Below, piece by piece: positions 2,822 through 8,599 of a stretch of 8,599 nt of DNA. Where the stretch lies: contig JADBKA010000200.1 of NCBI GenBank assembly GCA_014896635.1, positions 1-8,599 on the forward strand, in the 5' to 3' direction. Under the pieces are notes generated by a model. The model searched no databases, was not told where the DNA came from, and saw nothing but the letters and a program-made list of their open reading frames with translations. Within the stretch, counting starts at the first letter, position 1. Every line of letters begins with the position of its first letter. The position numbers and the translations under genes were made by a program. Origin of the DNA: Ktedonobacteraceae bacterium (lineage in GTDB: Bacteria > Chloroflexota > Ktedonobacteria > Ktedonobacterales > Ktedonobacteraceae).

Positions 2822-2856
2822 GCAGGTATAGAAGAATGGAGAGAAGAGGCAGAGCA

Positions 2857-3156
2857 ATGGCAACACACCGGCAGCATGATGACGAAGGCAGCTTGCATGG
2901 CATTCCCATGATTGTTGTTGAGGTACTCTCACCGAGCACGCAGCAGTACGACTGTACAGAGAAATTTGATCGCTACAAGCTTTGTTCTACCTTAGAGGTT
3001 TATATACTCGTCAGCCAGGATACACCCGTTGTGGGAGTTTACCGGCGTGCCGCCGGCTGGCAACGGGAATACTTCAGCGGGGAAGAAACCATCATGCTCG
3101 ACCAGCTTGATCTGGAACTCCCGCTGGCAGCGATCTACGAAGGTGTGCTCTCATGA
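2857..3156 (+). CDS. Half-length Uma2-family (DUF820) protein, N-terminal half missing
   Basis: Uma2 proteins have a PD-(D/E)xK nuclease-like fold and usually run to about 180-200 residues. This one has about 99. It matches only the C-terminal half: IPMIVVEVLSPSTQQYD (acidic Glu and LSPST core), then EKFDRYK with the usual Lys, YILVSQDTPVVGVYRR, and the closing LPLAAIYEGVLS. The N-terminal region that normally carries the PDV acidic segment is absent, and nothing like it appears in 2627-2856. Nuclease activity is therefore doubtful. ATG 2857 has GAGG seven bases upstream; an in-frame ATG at 2836 would add seven residues but has a weaker ribosome site. The stop overlaps the kinase start as ATGA, which suggests translational coupling. 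It may be a decayed gene kept as an upstream frame, or a small regulatory domain. Confidence 0.7.
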   Translation: MATHRQHDDEGSLHGIPMIVVEVLSPSTQQYDCTEKFDRYKLCSTLEVYILVSQDTPVVGVYRRAAGWQREYFSGEETIMLDQLDLELPLAAIYEGVLS

Positions 3157-4349
3157 ACAACACAGAAGCAGGACAGGAAGCGACGACACTGCTGCGCAGG
3201 AACCGTGATCTCGCCATTCTCTACGACATTGCAGGCTACCTGAATCACCAGGTTGATGTGCATGAGGCGCTGCAAGAAGTGCTGGCCCGCGTCACAGAAT
3301 TGCTTGGACTGGAGACCGGTTGGGTCTGGCTGCTCAATGAGGCCGGGAACACCTATCTGGCAGCCTCGCAGGCGCTCCCGCCTTATCTTGCGGATCATCC
3401 TGAGCGCATGACCGGCTCGTGCGTCTGCCTCGACACATTCCTCAGCGGCAACCTGGAAAGCGCGGCCAACGTGGATGTGCTGCGTTGCAGTCGCCTCAAG
3501 AATGCGGAGCGGGACAAAGATCCGAGCGCGCTTGGACTGCGCTTTCACGCCAGCGTCCCCATTTATGCAGGCGCAACGCGCCTGGGCGTCCTCAACGTCG
3601 CCAGCAAGGACTGGCGCGAACTCCAACCCGAGGAGTTACAGCTTCTCCACATCATCAGCGATCAGATCGGACTGGCAATCCAGCGGGCGCAACTCTCGGC
3701 GCAGCAAACGCGCTCAGTCGCGCGGCTGGCGGCCATCGAAGAGCGCAACCGCCTGGCAAGAGAGATCCATGACACGCTCGCACAGGGGCTGGCGGCCATC
3801 GCGCTGCAACTGGAAACGGCGGACGCACTGGGCGAGGCACAACCGGCACGCGCTCATGACGCCATCAAGAAAGCACTGAAGCTGGCACGCATCAATCTCG
3901 AAGAAGCTCGCCGCTCCGTCACAGACCTGCGGGCCGCTCCTCTTCAAGATCGCACCTTGCCAGAGGCTCTCGCCGCCCTCGTACAGGAACAGAACGAGCC
4001 GGGTCTCCTGATCACGTTCAACTACCGGCCACAGGACCACTTCCCTCTTCTGCCGGCGCGTATCGAGGTCGCTCTCTACCGCATTGCACAGGAAGCGCTG
4101 AACAACGCGCTCAAACACGCTCATGCCCACCACATCACCATCATGCTGCACGCTGACGAGCAACTGGTGCGCCTGGTAGTAGAGGACGATGGTAGCGGCT
4201 TCGATCCTGACACCGCCGGGCATGCGATCGAGCAGAAACACTTTGGCCTGACCGGTATGGCCGAGCGCGCCAGACTCCTGAACGGCAAGTTTTGCGTTCA
4301 GAGCGAGCCGGGAGCCGGCACCTGCATTTTCGTCACTCTGCCTTATTGA
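3153..4349 (+). CDS. Sensor histidine kinase, GAF + HisKA_3 + HATPase (NarL-type two-component system)
   Basis: This is a 398-residue kinase with no membrane segment, so it is cytosolic. Residues 20-183 form a GAF sensor domain. HisKA_3 follows with ERNRLAREIHDTLAQ: His206 is the phospho-acceptor, and the next Asp207 to Gln211 form the HDxxxQ phosphatase motif of this family. The ATPase domain shows the N-box (EALNNALKHAHA, Asn317/318), G1 (DDGSGF, 345-350) and HFGLTGMAERA. The GAF domain has Cys90 and Cys92 (GSCVCLD) and Cys112 (RCSRL). Such clustered cysteines occur in GAF kinases that bind Fe-S clusters or sense thiols, so a redox signal is plausible but unproven. The start overlaps the Uma2 stop by 4 bp, and AAGGTG lies about seven bases upstream. 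The regulator encoded next is the expected partner. Confidence 0.95.
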   Translation: MNNTEAGQEATTLLRRNRDLAILYDIAGYLNHQVDVHEALQEVLARVTELLGLETGWVWLLNEAGNTYLAASQALPPYLADHPERMTGSCVCLDTFLSGNLESAANVDVLRCSRLKNAERDKDPSALGLRFHASVPIYAGATRLGVLNVASKDWRELQPEELQLLHIISDQIGLAIQRAQLSAQQTRSVARLAAIEERNRLAREIHDTLAQGLAAIALQLETADALGEAQPARAHDAIKKALKLARINLEEARRSVTDLRAAPLQDRTLPEALAALVQEQNEPGLLITFNYRPQDHFPLLPARIEVALYRIAQEALNNALKHAHAHHITIMLHADEQLVRLVVEDDGSGFDPDTAGHAIEQKHFGLTGMAERARLLNGKFCVQSEPGAGTCIFVTLPY

Positions 4350-4387: not shown

Positions 4388-5077
4388 ATGGTTCGCATTT
4401 TGCTTGCCGATGACCACCCCATCGTCCGCGAAGGATTGCGCACCCTGCTGGAGACTCAGCCCGACTTCACAGTCATCGCGGAATGCGCTAACGGCGAAGA
4501 GACGCTGCGTCAGGCAGCGCGGCTCCAGCCCGATATTATCCTGCTGGACCTGGAGATGCCGCTCATGGACGGCGTGGAGACCATCCGGCACCTGCGACGC
4601 TCCCGCTCTGTCCAGTCTTCAGACACTGTGAGACCACTCCCGCGCATCATCGTCTTCACAGCCTTCGACGACGACGAACGCATCATCCATGCTATACAGG
4701 CAGGCGCCAACGGCTATCTGCTCAAAGATGCACCACGCGAAGAGATCTTTAAAGCGATCCACGTCGCCATGCAAGGCGGCTCTCTGCTCCAGCCAGTCGT
4801 GGCCTCGAAACTGCTGCATCACATGGGCCAGCAAAGAGACGCGGAGCACAGATTTGCTCAGATGCCGCAGGTCGAAGAACTAACCGAGCGCGAACTGGAA
4901 GTGCTGCGCCTGCTGGCACAGGGCATGCCAAACAAAGAGATCGCCGCCCACCTGGTGATCACCGAACGCACAGCAAAATTTCACGTCAGCTCCATCATGA
5001 GCAAGCTCGGCGCTACCAACCGCACCGAGGCCGTGACGCTGGCAGTTCAGCGTGGCCTTATCTCCCTGCACGCTTAA
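4388..5077 (+). CDS. NarL/FixJ-family response regulator with LuxR-type helix-turn-helix
   Basis: This 229-residue protein is the output partner of the upstream kinase. The receiver domain (1-125) has acidic Asp8/Asp9 (ADDHPIVREGL), phospho-acceptor Asp54 (LLDLEMPLMDG), switch Thr91 (VFTAFDDDE) and Lys113 (YLLKDA). A short hydrophilic insert of about 12 residues (RSRSVQSSDTVRPLP) sits between the alpha-3 region and beta-4. The DNA-binding domain starts near 165 (LTERELEVLRLLAQG) and continues through NKEIAAHL and a recognition helix (TAKFHVSSIMSKLGATNR). All key residues are intact, so it should be activated by phosphorylation and bind DNA as a dimer. GAGG lies six bases before the start. Likely targets are its own operon or the redox genes just downstream; no binding site is proven. 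Confidence 0.95.
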   Translation: MVRILLADDHPIVREGLRTLLETQPDFTVIAECANGEETLRQAARLQPDIILLDLEMPLMDGVETIRHLRRSRSVQSSDTVRPLPRIIVFTAFDDDERIIHAIQAGANGYLLKDAPREEIFKAIHVAMQGGSLLQPVVASKLLHHMGQQRDAEHRFAQMPQVEELTERELEVLRLLAQGMPNKEIAAHLVITERTAKFHVSSIMSKLGATNRTEAVTLAVQRGLISLHA

Positions 5078-5260: not shown

Positions 5261-5593
5261 ATGAAAGTTCCACACATTACCGCAGCCCTCGTGGTACTGG
5301 TGTTGATAGGCGTTGTCTCGGCTTTCGCCATTGGCCTGCTCAGTACGCTTGGTCCGCTGATGGCGCATGGCCCCGGTGCGATGCACGTGGCCGGAAAAAT
5401 TGTAGAAGTCGATGACAAAGATCATAGCTTTATCGTACAGACCACAACTGGACAGAAGTTGCATTTTCACTGCGATAGCCGTTGTCTCTCGCAGATTCAC
5501 CACATGGAACGTCATGTAACTGAGAAAGCCAGCACCGATATTTACTATATTCAAGGAAACGATCAAACATTGATCGCCATTGATGTTGACTAG
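5261..5593 (+). CDS. Small membrane-anchored protein with His/Cys-rich beta domain
   Basis: This is a 110-residue protein of no family I can name. Residues 6-28 are a hydrophobic segment (TAALVVLVLIGVVSAFAIGL) after a short N-terminus with a single Lys, so it is an uncleaved anchor or signal peptide with the rest outside. Residues 43-110 look like a small beta barrel (VAGKIVEVDDKDHSFIVQTT), similar in pattern to DUF5666 or CcmE-like OB folds. In the middle, H68, H70, C71, C75, H80, H81 and H85 cluster (HFHCDSRCLSQIHHMERH), which could bind metal or haem or form a disulfide. ATG 5261 is the only start in its open frame after TGA 5210 and lacks a good ribosome site. It lies 87 bases before the oxidoreductase and may be part of the same electron-transfer operon. 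Confidence 0.7.
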   Translation: MKVPHITAALVVLVLIGVVSAFAIGLLSTLGPLMAHGPGAMHVAGKIVEVDDKDHSFIVQTTTGQKLHFHCDSRCLSQIHHMERHVTEKASTDIYYIQGNDQTLIAIDVD

Positions 5594-5634: not shown

Positions 5635-5680
5635 GCACGAACATATGACAGTATATTGATGTAGGTAGGCAGGAGTAGTG

Positions 5681-7552
5681 ATGAGCAGTAGAGAAAACAG
5701 AGCACTGGTATTCCGGCAGGGAGAACGGCAGGTCAGTAAACCAGCTATGGAGAGCGCCGATATCGTCATCGTCGGCAATGGCATCGCCGGCTTAACGGCA
5801 GCAGTTGAGGCGCGCCAACTGGCCCCGGAGAAGAAAATCGTGATTGTGACCGATCAGATTCATCCTACCATCAATACCCCTGCCCTGAAACAGTTCGCCA
5901 TCGCCAAACTGGAGCGTGAACAACTGCTGGCCTACCCGGCGGGAACCGAAAAAGCGAACCGCATTCACGTGGTAACGGCGCATGTTGAGGAGATACATGC
6001 CAGGAGCAAATACGTGACGCTCAGGGGTGGATATGCTTTCGGCTACGGCTCGCTCTTGCTCGCTACTGGCAGCCGGGCGCAAGGACTGCCAGCAGATTTG
6101 CCGGGCCGCGAATTTGATGGTGTGATCACGCTGCACCGCTTGCAGGACTACCTCGACCTGCGCCGGCGCATCGGTGAGGTGAGAGAGGCAGTCGTAATTG
6201 GGGGAGGTGTGCATGCCATCGAGACGGTGATGGGCCTGCGTTACTGGGGGATTCGCGTCCACTGGCTGATTCGCAGCTCCACTTTTATGCGCGGAACACT
6301 TGACGAAACGGCATCCGAGATGGTGCTCGATCACGTTCGTAAGAGCGGGATTGAGATTCATACAGAAACGGAAGTAATCGGGATTGTCGGTCGCGTCGGG
6401 TCAGTGGTTGGTGTGATCACCAATCACCGCCAGATGATCCCCTGCCAGCTTGTTGCGGTCTGCACCGGCACACAGCCGGTCACAACGCTGGCCGAGCGCA
6501 GCACTATCCCGATCCAGCATAAACGCGGCATCATCGTAGACGACAAACTGCGTAGCAGCGTGCGCGACATCTTTGCCGCCGGGGACGCGGCGGCACTGAA
6601 AAATCCCCAGACCGGCATCTATGAGCCGCGCGCGCAGTGGTACGCCGCCGTTCACCAGGGACGTATCGCCGGGGCCATGCTGGCCGGTAGAGCTGACCTG
6701 GCCCGGCAACCATTCGGCACGCGCTGGCACGCCACTCACCTCGGCGACCTCTCTATGCTCTCGGTAGGCAATCCTCTGAGTACAGATCCGCGCGCCGTCA
6801 CGCTGACCGACACTAGCCAGGGCGGCTATCGCCGCTTGACGCTGCTAGATGACCGCCTGATCGGCTATCTCTCGCTTGGAACCGTCCAGCCCGATAGCCT
6901 GGCGATCAAACGTATCATCGACGAAGGCCACTCGATACGTGATATCACAAAGGCTTTGCTCAAAGGCCATTTCGACGCACGCCGCTACTTCTCCGAACGA
7001 CGTTCGCGCGCGGTCGAGAAGATGCTTGTCACCAGTAGACTCCCTATGCTGGAAACTGCCGAAAGCGCGCTGGTAACAAGACGCCTGCCAACGCAGGAAC
7101 TCACTGATTTTGTCGCTACTCCTCAGGCACCGTCAGTACGCCCGTCGTCCACCGATGCGTTACCATCCTCTTCTCGTACAACACAGGCCAGCAGGCAAGA
7201 GGAGACCGGGGAAAGAGACGAAACGCATCAGCTCCCAGGCGCGATCCCACTACTGCCAGACCAGTTCCTCCTGGACACGCCAGCAGAACAGGAAGGCATG
7301 GCCCCTGACATCTTCGCCGAAGAACTCGATCCATTCAGCGGCTCACTACCGGAATTGCCGGAACTGCCGGCACAGGTCACCGACTCTACAGCCAGATCCA
7401 TCGCGGCTCCCGCGCCAGCCCGGCCAACCGGTCCAGCCGGGCAGCCCGCCGTACCAGTACCAGAAACCTCCCGTACTCAGACTGCGAACAGGAGGCGCGA
7501 GAGCGAGGCAGAAAAGCGTCCCACATGTGGCCTGCGTGCATATATGCGCTAA
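5681..7552 (+). CDS. FAD/NAD(P)-dependent oxidoreductase (Pyr_redox_2) with long disordered C-terminal tail
   Basis: This 623-residue flavoprotein probably takes electrons from NAD(P)H via FAD and passes them to the ferredoxin encoded next. The FAD-binding motif is IVIVGNGIAGLTAA (Gly32-Gly37), then LLLATGS (128-131) and DIFAAGDAA (Asp302). The nucleotide-binding motif is VVIGGGVHAIE (Gly174-176). Arg198 and Arg204 after the second strand form an R-x5-R pair, which hints at NADPH. No redox-active CxxC is present, so it is not a disulfide reductase; the layout resembles rubredoxin reductase or the N-terminus of NirB. A C-terminal domain runs to about 445. Residues 450-620 are Pro/Ser/Thr/Glu-rich and probably disordered, far beyond the usual 400-450 residues. 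ATG 5681 is chosen because AGGAG (5671-5675) lies five bases away; GTG 5678 directly precedes it but is too close. The ferredoxin gene follows after 23 bases. Confidence 0.9.
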   Translation: MSSRENRALVFRQGERQVSKPAMESADIVIVGNGIAGLTAAVEARQLAPEKKIVIVTDQIHPTINTPALKQFAIAKLEREQLLAYPAGTEKANRIHVVTAHVEEIHARSKYVTLRGGYAFGYGSLLLATGSRAQGLPADLPGREFDGVITLHRLQDYLDLRRRIGEVREAVVIGGGVHAIETVMGLRYWGIRVHWLIRSSTFMRGTLDETASEMVLDHVRKSGIEIHTETEVIGIVGRVGSVVGVITNHRQMIPCQLVAVCTGTQPVTTLAERSTIPIQHKRGIIVDDKLRSSVRDIFAAGDAAALKNPQTGIYEPRAQWYAAVHQGRIAGAMLAGRADLARQPFGTRWHATHLGDLSMLSVGNPLSTDPRAVTLTDTSQGGYRRLTLLDDRLIGYLSLGTVQPDSLAIKRIIDEGHSIRDITKALLKGHFDARRYFSERRSRAVEKMLVTSRLPMLETAESALVTRRLPTQELTDFVATPQAPSVRPSSTDALPSSSRTTQASRQEETGERDETHQLPGAIPLLPDQFLLDTPAEQEGMAPDIFAEELDPFSGSLPELPELPAQVTDSTARSIAAPAPARPTGPAGQPAVPVPETSRTQTANRRRESEAEKRPTCGLRAYMR

Positions 7553-7575
7553 CGACAAAGAAAGGAAGAGTTTGC

Positions 7576-7884
7576 ATGCTCAAATTGCTCACTCCCCGAC
7601 CTGTTCTCGTCCATAAAACCGCGCCGCAGGTAGTACAGGAAATTCATGCCTGTATCGGCTGCAACGAATGTTTACTGGCCTGCCCGGCTGTGGATGAACC
7701 AGTTACCATAGATGTGCTGAACCACGAAACGATTGCGGGACCAATCTCACCGCCGGTAGCGCGCTTCGCCAGAGCTTGCTACCAGTGTGGCGCCTGCGTT
7801 CCCCCCTGTCCCGTAGGACTACACCGCGACGCCATGATGCTGTGGCTCAGGATGCGCCTGCAACGAGAAGGTCTGGAAGGATGA
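7576..7884 (+). CDS. Two-cluster 4Fe-4S ferredoxin-type protein
   Basis: This small soluble electron carrier has 102 residues. Two classic motifs are present: CIGCNECLLACP (Cys26, 29, 32, 36) and CYQCGACVPPCP (Cys68, 71, 74, 78). Each should bind one 4Fe-4S cluster. The 31-residue gap between the two motifs resembles the dicluster domain of HdrC/GlpC or succinate dehydrogenase-type iron-sulfur subunits more than short bacterial ferredoxins. No C-terminal CCG domain follows, so it is not a full HdrC/GlpC. ATG 7576 has AAAGGAAGAG five bases upstream. It lies 23 bases after the flavoprotein and 9 bases before the membrane protein, so all three are likely cotranscribed. Its likely role is to carry electrons from FAD to the membrane partner. 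Confidence 0.93.
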   Translation: MLKLLTPRPVLVHKTAPQVVQEIHACIGCNECLLACPAVDEPVTIDVLNHETIAGPISPPVARFARACYQCGACVPPCPVGLHRDAMMLWLRMRLQREGLEG

Positions 7885-7893
7885 ACAAAGAGT

Positions 7894-8599
7894 ATGGGAT
7901 TCGACTTTTTTTCTCTCAACCGTAAACGTCTGCTCAATATCGCTATCACCACACTGCTGATCGTCCTCGCGGTCGCTTATTTCGTGTGGTTCAGCCGTAC
8001 CAGCAACGATCCGACGCCCGATAGTTTCGCTGGCTATCTTTTCGCCATCAGCGGGACAGTGGTCCTGCTGCTGGCGGCGGTTCGCTATAGTATGCATCGC
8101 CGCTCACGTAAGCGCACCGTTGGTCTGCTCAGCAGATCACTCAACTGGCATATCAGCCTCGGCATCCTGGCTCTGGTGCTGATCATCCTGCACTCCTTTG
8201 GCAACTTCAACCCGCGCAGCGGCACCTACGCGCTCTTCGCTCTGGTCGCCCTGGTCATCAGTGGTGCAATTGGCCGCCTGATCGACCGGATAGCACCGGG
8301 AAAAATTGCTCAGACCGCATCACAGGCTCTGACAGAGCAAGGGGAAGATCGCATTGAATCGATCACACGGGGTCTGCAAGCACTCGTCACCCATAATAGA
8401 CAGCAGGTCCAGGGAGTAAAGCTTGCACATGATGCTCACGATAACGCAACAGATCGCTCTCTCACATCTTCCACCTCTACTACCCGCGCACCCGCGACAT
8501 CCTCTACGGCCCGGCTGAACGAGCAAAGTCTGCCCGCTGGATGGCCCGCGCCACGACAAAAACCGGAAGAAGCACAGATATTGCGGTCTTCCTGGGATA
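7894..8599 (+). CDS. Four-helix membrane protein, putative b-type cytochrome, C-terminus cut by right edge
   Basis: The frame is open from ATG 7894 to the window end (235 codons). Four hydrophobic helices are visible: about residues 16-35, 46-66, 85-103 and 110-127. Helix 3 reads WHISLGILALVLIILHSFGN, with His86 and His100 spaced H-x13-H as in the haem-binding helices of b-type cytochromes. His68 (YSMHRRSRKR) lies at the inner end of helix 2 in a very basic loop. By the positive-inside rule both termini face the cytoplasm. After helix 4 comes a charged, helical stretch, then a Ser/Thr/Pro-rich linker. The start has GGAAGG about 13 bases upstream. A full cytochrome b would need His partners on another helix, so haem content is inferred. 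It probably receives electrons from the flavoprotein and ferredoxin. The missing C-terminus could carry another domain. Confidence 0.8.
   Translation, partial: MGFDFFSLNRKRLLNIAITTLLIVLAVAYFVWFSRTSNDPTPDSFAGYLFAISGTVVLLLAAVRYSMHRRSRKRTVGLLSRSLNWHISLGILALVLIILHSFGNFNPRSGTYALFALVALVISGAIGRLIDRIAPGKIAQTASQALTEQGEDRIESITRGLQALVTHNRQQVQGVKLAHDAHDNATDRSLTSSTSTTRAPATSSTARLNEQSLPAGWPAPRQKPEEAQILRSSWD

Follow-up and report, generated by a model that had tools for sequence, protein, structure and literature searches.

A conserved flavoprotein, ferredoxin and membrane protein module in Ktedonobacteria: a candidate transmembrane electron conduit with relatives across Chloroflexota

Gene content and conserved gene order

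The 8599-nucleotide stretch of DNA analysed here (contig JADBKA010000200.1 of a Ktedonobacteraceae bacterium; hereafter the window) ends in a run of forward-strand genes that apparently form a conserved, unnamed electron-transfer module. The run includes genes for a flavin adenine dinucleotide (FAD)-dependent NAD(P)H oxidoreductase of the Pyr_redox_2 family with a long low-complexity tail (5681..7552), a small ferredoxin with two 4Fe-4S motifs (7576..7884) and a membrane protein whose 3' part lies beyond the window end (7894..8599). These coordinates, with gaps of 23 bases between the flavoprotein and ferredoxin genes and of 9 bases between the ferredoxin and membrane protein genes, agree with an earlier note on this DNA, which had regarded the three adjacent genes as one electron-transfer module. 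Ahead of them, on the same strand, lies the gene for a small protein (5261..5593) with one predicted membrane helix and a predicted OB-fold domain that carries the motifs C-x3-C and H-x2-R-H-x2-E.

A one-genome-per-species scan yielded 11 loci, all by title from Ktedonobacteria, a group of soil bacteria within Chloroflexota. In all of them the four genes follow one another on a single strand as small protein, flavoprotein, ferredoxin and membrane protein, which places the arrangement beyond chance. The conserved unit extends to the gene at 5261..5593 and is not the triad alone. Thus, the three genes named in the earlier note do belong together, but the picture they give is not complete, given the small OB-fold protein and the sister versions described below.

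Matches to the membrane protein were found in 48 of the 301 Chloroflexota genomes sampled, four of which (G029, G056, G249 and G263; 18–25 bits) were set aside as weak. The G029 protein (L065), which presumably resembles an MFS transporter, lacks the H-x13-H motif of this family and was dropped as a relative. Strong matches (E ≤ 3.6e-43) came from 25 genomes, and the flavoprotein and ferredoxin genes adjoin that of the membrane protein in each of the 25, which, together with the gene order, upholds the proposal of a single module. The survey covered Chloroflexota, and those relatives whose source names show the organism come from Chloroflexi groups.

The flavoprotein and the ferredoxin

The flavoprotein matched Pyr_redox_2 with 163 bits, has no CxxC and keeps the GxGxxA-type motifs of putative FAD and NAD(P) sites across 12 aligned rows. 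An in-frame GTG at 5678 lies just before the called start at 5681. Ala-68 aligns with the Cys of the PCGIP stretch in the CoA-disulfide reductase 4fx9, which we take to be the active-site residue of that enzyme. The protein has the features of a ferredoxin reductase-type Pyr_redox_2 enzyme, namely the domain, sites for FAD and NAD(P) and no redox Cys pair, and the earlier assignment as an NAD(P)H-type FAD enzyme without CxxC is borne out, with the cofactor read from the sequence. Among its fold relatives in the PDB are ferredoxin reductases and 8c0z_E, the NADH-linked subunit of an aldehyde oxidoreductase complex. The best curated model, PadH (NF045765), scored 143 bits, whereas its cut-off is 475. 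The second NAD-binding strand ends in LIRG, which corresponds to VRG in 4fx9; since an Arg at this position goes with NADPH use, NADPH is a possible substrate. The tail contains the motif E-E-x-x-P-F-[ST]-G-x-L-P (7319..7351), which a scan of the relatives found in 11 of 11 Ktedonobacteria loci (two to three copies in L004, L005 and L010), as well as at 17 of the 25 strong-match loci (L019–L043), and which is perhaps a docking or phosphorylation motif.

The ferredoxin has two C-x2-C-x2-C-x3-C-P motifs whose eight Cys are invariant in 12 of 12 rows (83% mean column identity), and it matched Fer4_9 with 32.7 bits (cut-off 27), as expected of the two-cluster 4Fe-4S protein proposed earlier. In the metagenome-assembled genome (MAG) G006, a paralogous flavoprotein and ferredoxin form one reading frame, which supports a direct partnership between the two.

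The membrane protein

In the window protein, the first H-x13-H pair consists of His-86 and His-100 (codons 8149–8151 and 8191–8193). Full-length relatives, of about 300–340 residues, carry a second H-x13-H pair in a region that, for the window protein, falls beyond 8599. Two such pairs were present in all 43 inspected rows from 37 distinct places, a count that excludes the false match L065 and one wrong-frame row (L060), and the four His are conserved without exception in the 19 aligned rows, whose identity falls as low as 24%. The AlphaFold2 model of the L004 ortholog predicts five membrane helices, with the His pairs on helices 3 and 5. The haem-type His pair of the earlier note is therefore present, but its four helices become five and a second pair is added in full-length relatives; in the same way, the proposed path from NAD(P)H to the membrane is modified, because two His pairs on two helices fit a path across the membrane and not merely to it. 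Judged by its His residues and the model, the protein looks like a two-haem b protein; we infer the binding of haem, as that of FAD and Fe-S by its partners, from motifs and family matches.

Four candidate haem-ligand His on two helices are shared with the ferric reductase domain superfamily (NOX, FRE, MsrQ/YedZ and STEAP; PF01794), and in four-His ferric reductase domains, according to the accessible part of the source, the pairs are likewise placed on helices 3 and 5 (PMC3591440). In contrast to that superfamily, the membrane protein has five predicted helices and no fused dehydrogenase domain; the flavin would sit on a Pyr_redox_2 protein of its own, with a 4Fe-4S ferredoxin between it and the membrane protein. 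Accordingly, none of the full-length relatives scanned had a fused FAD/NADPH dehydrogenase domain, the flavin enzyme being the product of a separate gene. PF01794 had no match in the window protein at E 0.1 and was weak in 4 of the 19 alignment rows (best E 0.0028); two distant paralogues exceeded its cut-off of 28 bits (29.9 and 30.3 bits).

A membrane protein with His pairs is also found in the prokaryotic cytochrome b561/Ni-Fe hydrogenase cytochrome b family (PF01292), whose scores stayed below the cut-off of 30.1 bits (13.2 bits for the window protein, 23.5 bits for L053); sub-cut-off matches occurred in 11 of the 19 rows (best E 4.4e-6), and 11 of the 120 proteins among the matches listed bear a b561 or Ni-Fe hydrogenase cytochrome b label. 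Many b-type membrane subunits serve quinones. This likeness, together with the lack of cytochrome c7 in the triad genomes described below, would suit an NAD(P)H:quinone oxidoreductase that reduces menaquinone within the membrane and keeps the electrons in the cell. Nevertheless, an exit to the outside is suggested by the two predicted haems on both membrane sides and by the multihaem cytochrome c that the sister operons encode, and we consider quinone reduction unlikely, although it deserves to be kept in mind.

Sister versions and electron outlets

In other Chloroflexota, the gene after that of the membrane protein codes for a multihaem cytochrome c in all 14 loci fetched widely. Among the 18 more distant genomes, 13 were fetched widely (L052–L064) and five were not; L045, one of those five short stretches, likewise shows the cytochrome. 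The 12 loci L052–L063 all combine a dicluster ferredoxin, a flavoprotein, the membrane protein and a cytochrome with at least 14 CxxCH motifs, and L064 has the flavoprotein and a frame with 13 CxxCH. L068 (genome G020) pairs a relative of the membrane protein with a cytochrome of 8 CxxCH; the flavoprotein and ferredoxin profiles had no match in its 15 kb. The region 6348–12916 of L068 also encodes a beta-helix protein and a protein kinase that bears beta-propeller repeats. A 1155-residue frame with 47 CxxCH motifs (L058:9971–13438) adjoins a cytochrome-type operon.

The earlier note had suggested reading the genes to the right of the window to see whether a cytochrome c or a terminal reductase follows. 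In 9 of the 11 Ktedonobacteria loci that place is taken by a family of small membrane proteins of about 115–150 residues (e.g. L001:9185–9598), of which the two copies scanned matched nothing in Pfam, whereas the distant relatives in other Chloroflexota do have a multihaem cytochrome c there. Cytochrome_C7 (PF14522) was found in none of the 12 triad genomes examined and in all 5 cytochrome-type genomes. Cytochrome_CBB3 (PF13442), the other c-type family searched, had no match above cut-off in nine Ktedonobacteria genomes; G100, G092 and G058 have one such domain each.

Nine Ktedonobacteria genomes each encode a further, distant membrane protein. In all seven loci fetched (L012–L018, from six genomes; e.g. 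L014:1747–7082), this paralogue lies beside a flavoprotein with one or more FHA domains and a ferredoxin with cyclic-nucleotide-binding domains. In Ktedonosporobacter rubrisoli, the gene just upstream of this FHA version (L014:253–1707) encodes a protein kinase whose C-terminal domain is of the Rieske type; this kinase was found beside one of the seven loci, the upstream genes of L012, L013, L015, L016 and L018 not being kinases, and was dropped as a component.

A tree of 38 membrane proteins, which took in L060 in the right frame and left out L068, divided the triad, FHA and cytochrome types into three clades (support at least 99/96) with two label changes, the minimum possible. Long branches separate the three types and leave the order among them uncertain.

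In Ktedonobacteria, the candidate for the role of acceptor or partner is the small OB-fold protein. Its AlphaFold2 model consists of one membrane helix and an OB fold (mean pLDDT, predicted local distance difference test, of 89), and its best fold matches were the Cu/Ag metal chaperones SilF and CusF, with CcmE lower and then many unrelated OB proteins. Of the 301 genomes, 20 encode the protein; these all belong to the 25 triad genomes (0 of the 276 others), and in 19 of the 20 it shares a contig with the membrane protein. C-x3-C is present in all 13 Ktedonobacteria copies examined, and the His-Arg-His-Glu stretch is retained in three outgroup copies that lack the Cys pair; C-x3-C as a universal active site was dropped for this reason. 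The small protein may take electrons, bind metal or aid assembly.

The fold matches to metal chaperones and the NOX-like placing of the four His in the model (PMC3591440, accessible part) would also agree with an oxidase-like or metal reductase, in which the outer haem directly reduces O2 to superoxide, or Fe(III) or Cu(II), with the OB-fold protein as the metal partner; one relative (P0036) even bears the source name 'Iron reductase'. However, OB folds are common and the outgroup copies without C-x3-C do not suit this role, so that we see in such a reductase a minor possibility.

Regulation and neighbouring genes

Upstream of the module, on the forward strand, the window encodes a GAF sensor histidine kinase (3153..4349) and its partner, a LuxR-type response regulator (4388..5077), both assigned by Pfam. 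The pair lies upstream of the module in 9 of the 11 loci, with four extra genes in between in L001 and L006, and likely regulates it. In the closest locus, L001 (a Ktedonobacteraceae MAG contig), the flavoprotein is 69% identical to that of the window, the ferredoxin 75.5%, the kinase 76% and the regulator 80%, which makes a member of Ktedonobacteria the most likely source of the window. The GAF region of the kinase contains H-x7-C-x-C-x19-C, invariant in 9 of 9 aligned rows (L002, whose kinase frame is split, was left out of the alignment). This pattern is close to that of the Fe-S kinase AirS of Staphylococcus aureus, in which, according to the accessible part of the source, C-x7-C-x-C-x17-C binds a [2Fe-2S] cluster (PMC4601167). 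By this analogy, control of the module by redox state or oxygen is plausible.

The possible Fe-S site of the kinase and the FHA and cyclic-nucleotide-binding domains in all seven sister loci could also mean that the chain is a redox sensor, which would inform signalling proteins of the NAD(P)H state while carrying little current. The window version has no FHA or cyclic-nucleotide domains according to Pfam, and we regard this role as very unlikely.

Promoter and terminator scans gave signals at the level of shuffled sequence. A 106-residue frame at 2836–3156 of the window presumably resembles the C-terminal part of a Uma2-type protein and is perhaps a decayed gene.

Comparison with known systems

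The flavoprotein shares the Pyr_redox_2 fold, two nucleotide sites and the absence of CxxC with TodA, putidaredoxin reductase, BphA4, PadH and 8c0z_E, of which the last two presumably serve complexes with electron-carrying partners. It differs from this group in its long conserved tail and in its partners, a dicluster ferredoxin and a putative membrane cytochrome. Rnf, Nuo, Nfn and Hdr also arrange flavin and Fe-S carriers around NAD(P)H. Nevertheless, the ferredoxin scored far below the cut-offs for RnfC (22.7 against 246 bits), NuoI (20.6 against 113 bits) and the HdrC-type model TIGR03290 (21.1 against 160 bits), in keeping with the earlier view that the module differs from Rnf, Nuo and Hdr, and no Rnf-, Nuo-, Nfn- or Hdr-type partner was found among the seven window proteins scanned.

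A survey of flavinylation distinguishes, in its accessible part, five types of transmembrane electron transfer (NapH-like, MsrQ-like, PepSY-like, DsbD and NQR/RNF-like), with which the module would share the layout of a cytosolic donor, a membrane carrier and an outside acceptor; in that part, none of the types has this gene set and the word Chloroflexi does not occur (PMC8238504). One Chloroflexi genome has been reported to have several multihaem cytochromes, and the accessible part of that report does not describe this operon (PMC3971608). No description of the gene set was found in the literature searched, a search whose scope left out most subscription papers.

A proposed mechanism of transmembrane electron transfer

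The anatomy of the module is well supported. With moderate confidence, we favour the view that it is a transmembrane electron conduit, leading from NAD(P)H through FAD, two 4Fe-4S clusters and two haems b to an outside acceptor. Cytosolic NAD(P)H would reduce the FAD of the flavoprotein, from which electrons would move singly to the two ferredoxin clusters. The five-helix membrane protein would next receive them at a haem b by its cytoplasmic face and relay them to a second haem b by its outer face, from which they would exit to an extracytoplasmic acceptor. In other Chloroflexota this acceptor would be the multihaem cytochrome c from the next gene; in Ktedonobacteria, where cytochrome c7 was not found, the small OB-fold protein may be the acceptor or a partner.

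Several observations weigh against such a conduit. Neither the membrane protein nor the ferredoxin has a meaningful sequence match in the PDB. Foldseek gave no match for the membrane protein model at E 0.001, the VIA scores of this model fall within the background range for helical bundles, and profile comparisons to small sets of ferric reductases (4 and 8 sequences) and b561 proteins (5) were not significant. The small protein is absent from 5 of the 25 triad genomes and hence no universal acceptor, and three outgroup copies lack the Cys pair. In addition, the link to a cytochrome as acceptor is drawn from relatives and not from the window, and quinone reduction remains a competing outcome.

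The direction of flow proposed here could also be reversed. Flavoproteins of this type and ferredoxins can work both ways, and electrons from an outside donor could enter, in the sister operons through the multihaem cytochromes, and reduce ferredoxin or NAD(P)+ in the cytosol. Transfer to NAD(P)+ would, however, be uphill unless driven by the membrane potential, and no donor system was identified among the window genes scanned; inward flow thus appears highly improbable.

If the conduit view is correct, the module may, as a more tentative suggestion that we put forward with some doubt, represent a new class of conduits across Chloroflexota, with an NADPH oxidase-like two-haem core, a feed by separate flavoprotein and 4Fe-4S ferredoxin, and exchangeable outlets: a multihaem cytochrome, FHA/cyclic-nucleotide signalling or, in Ktedonobacteria, a cytochrome-free OB-fold protein handling metal, thiol or oxygen. 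The finding singles out four genes for study in species already in culture, among them Ktedonosporobacter rubrisoli and Dictyobacter, and makes it testable how genomes without cytochrome c7 export reducing power from the cell.

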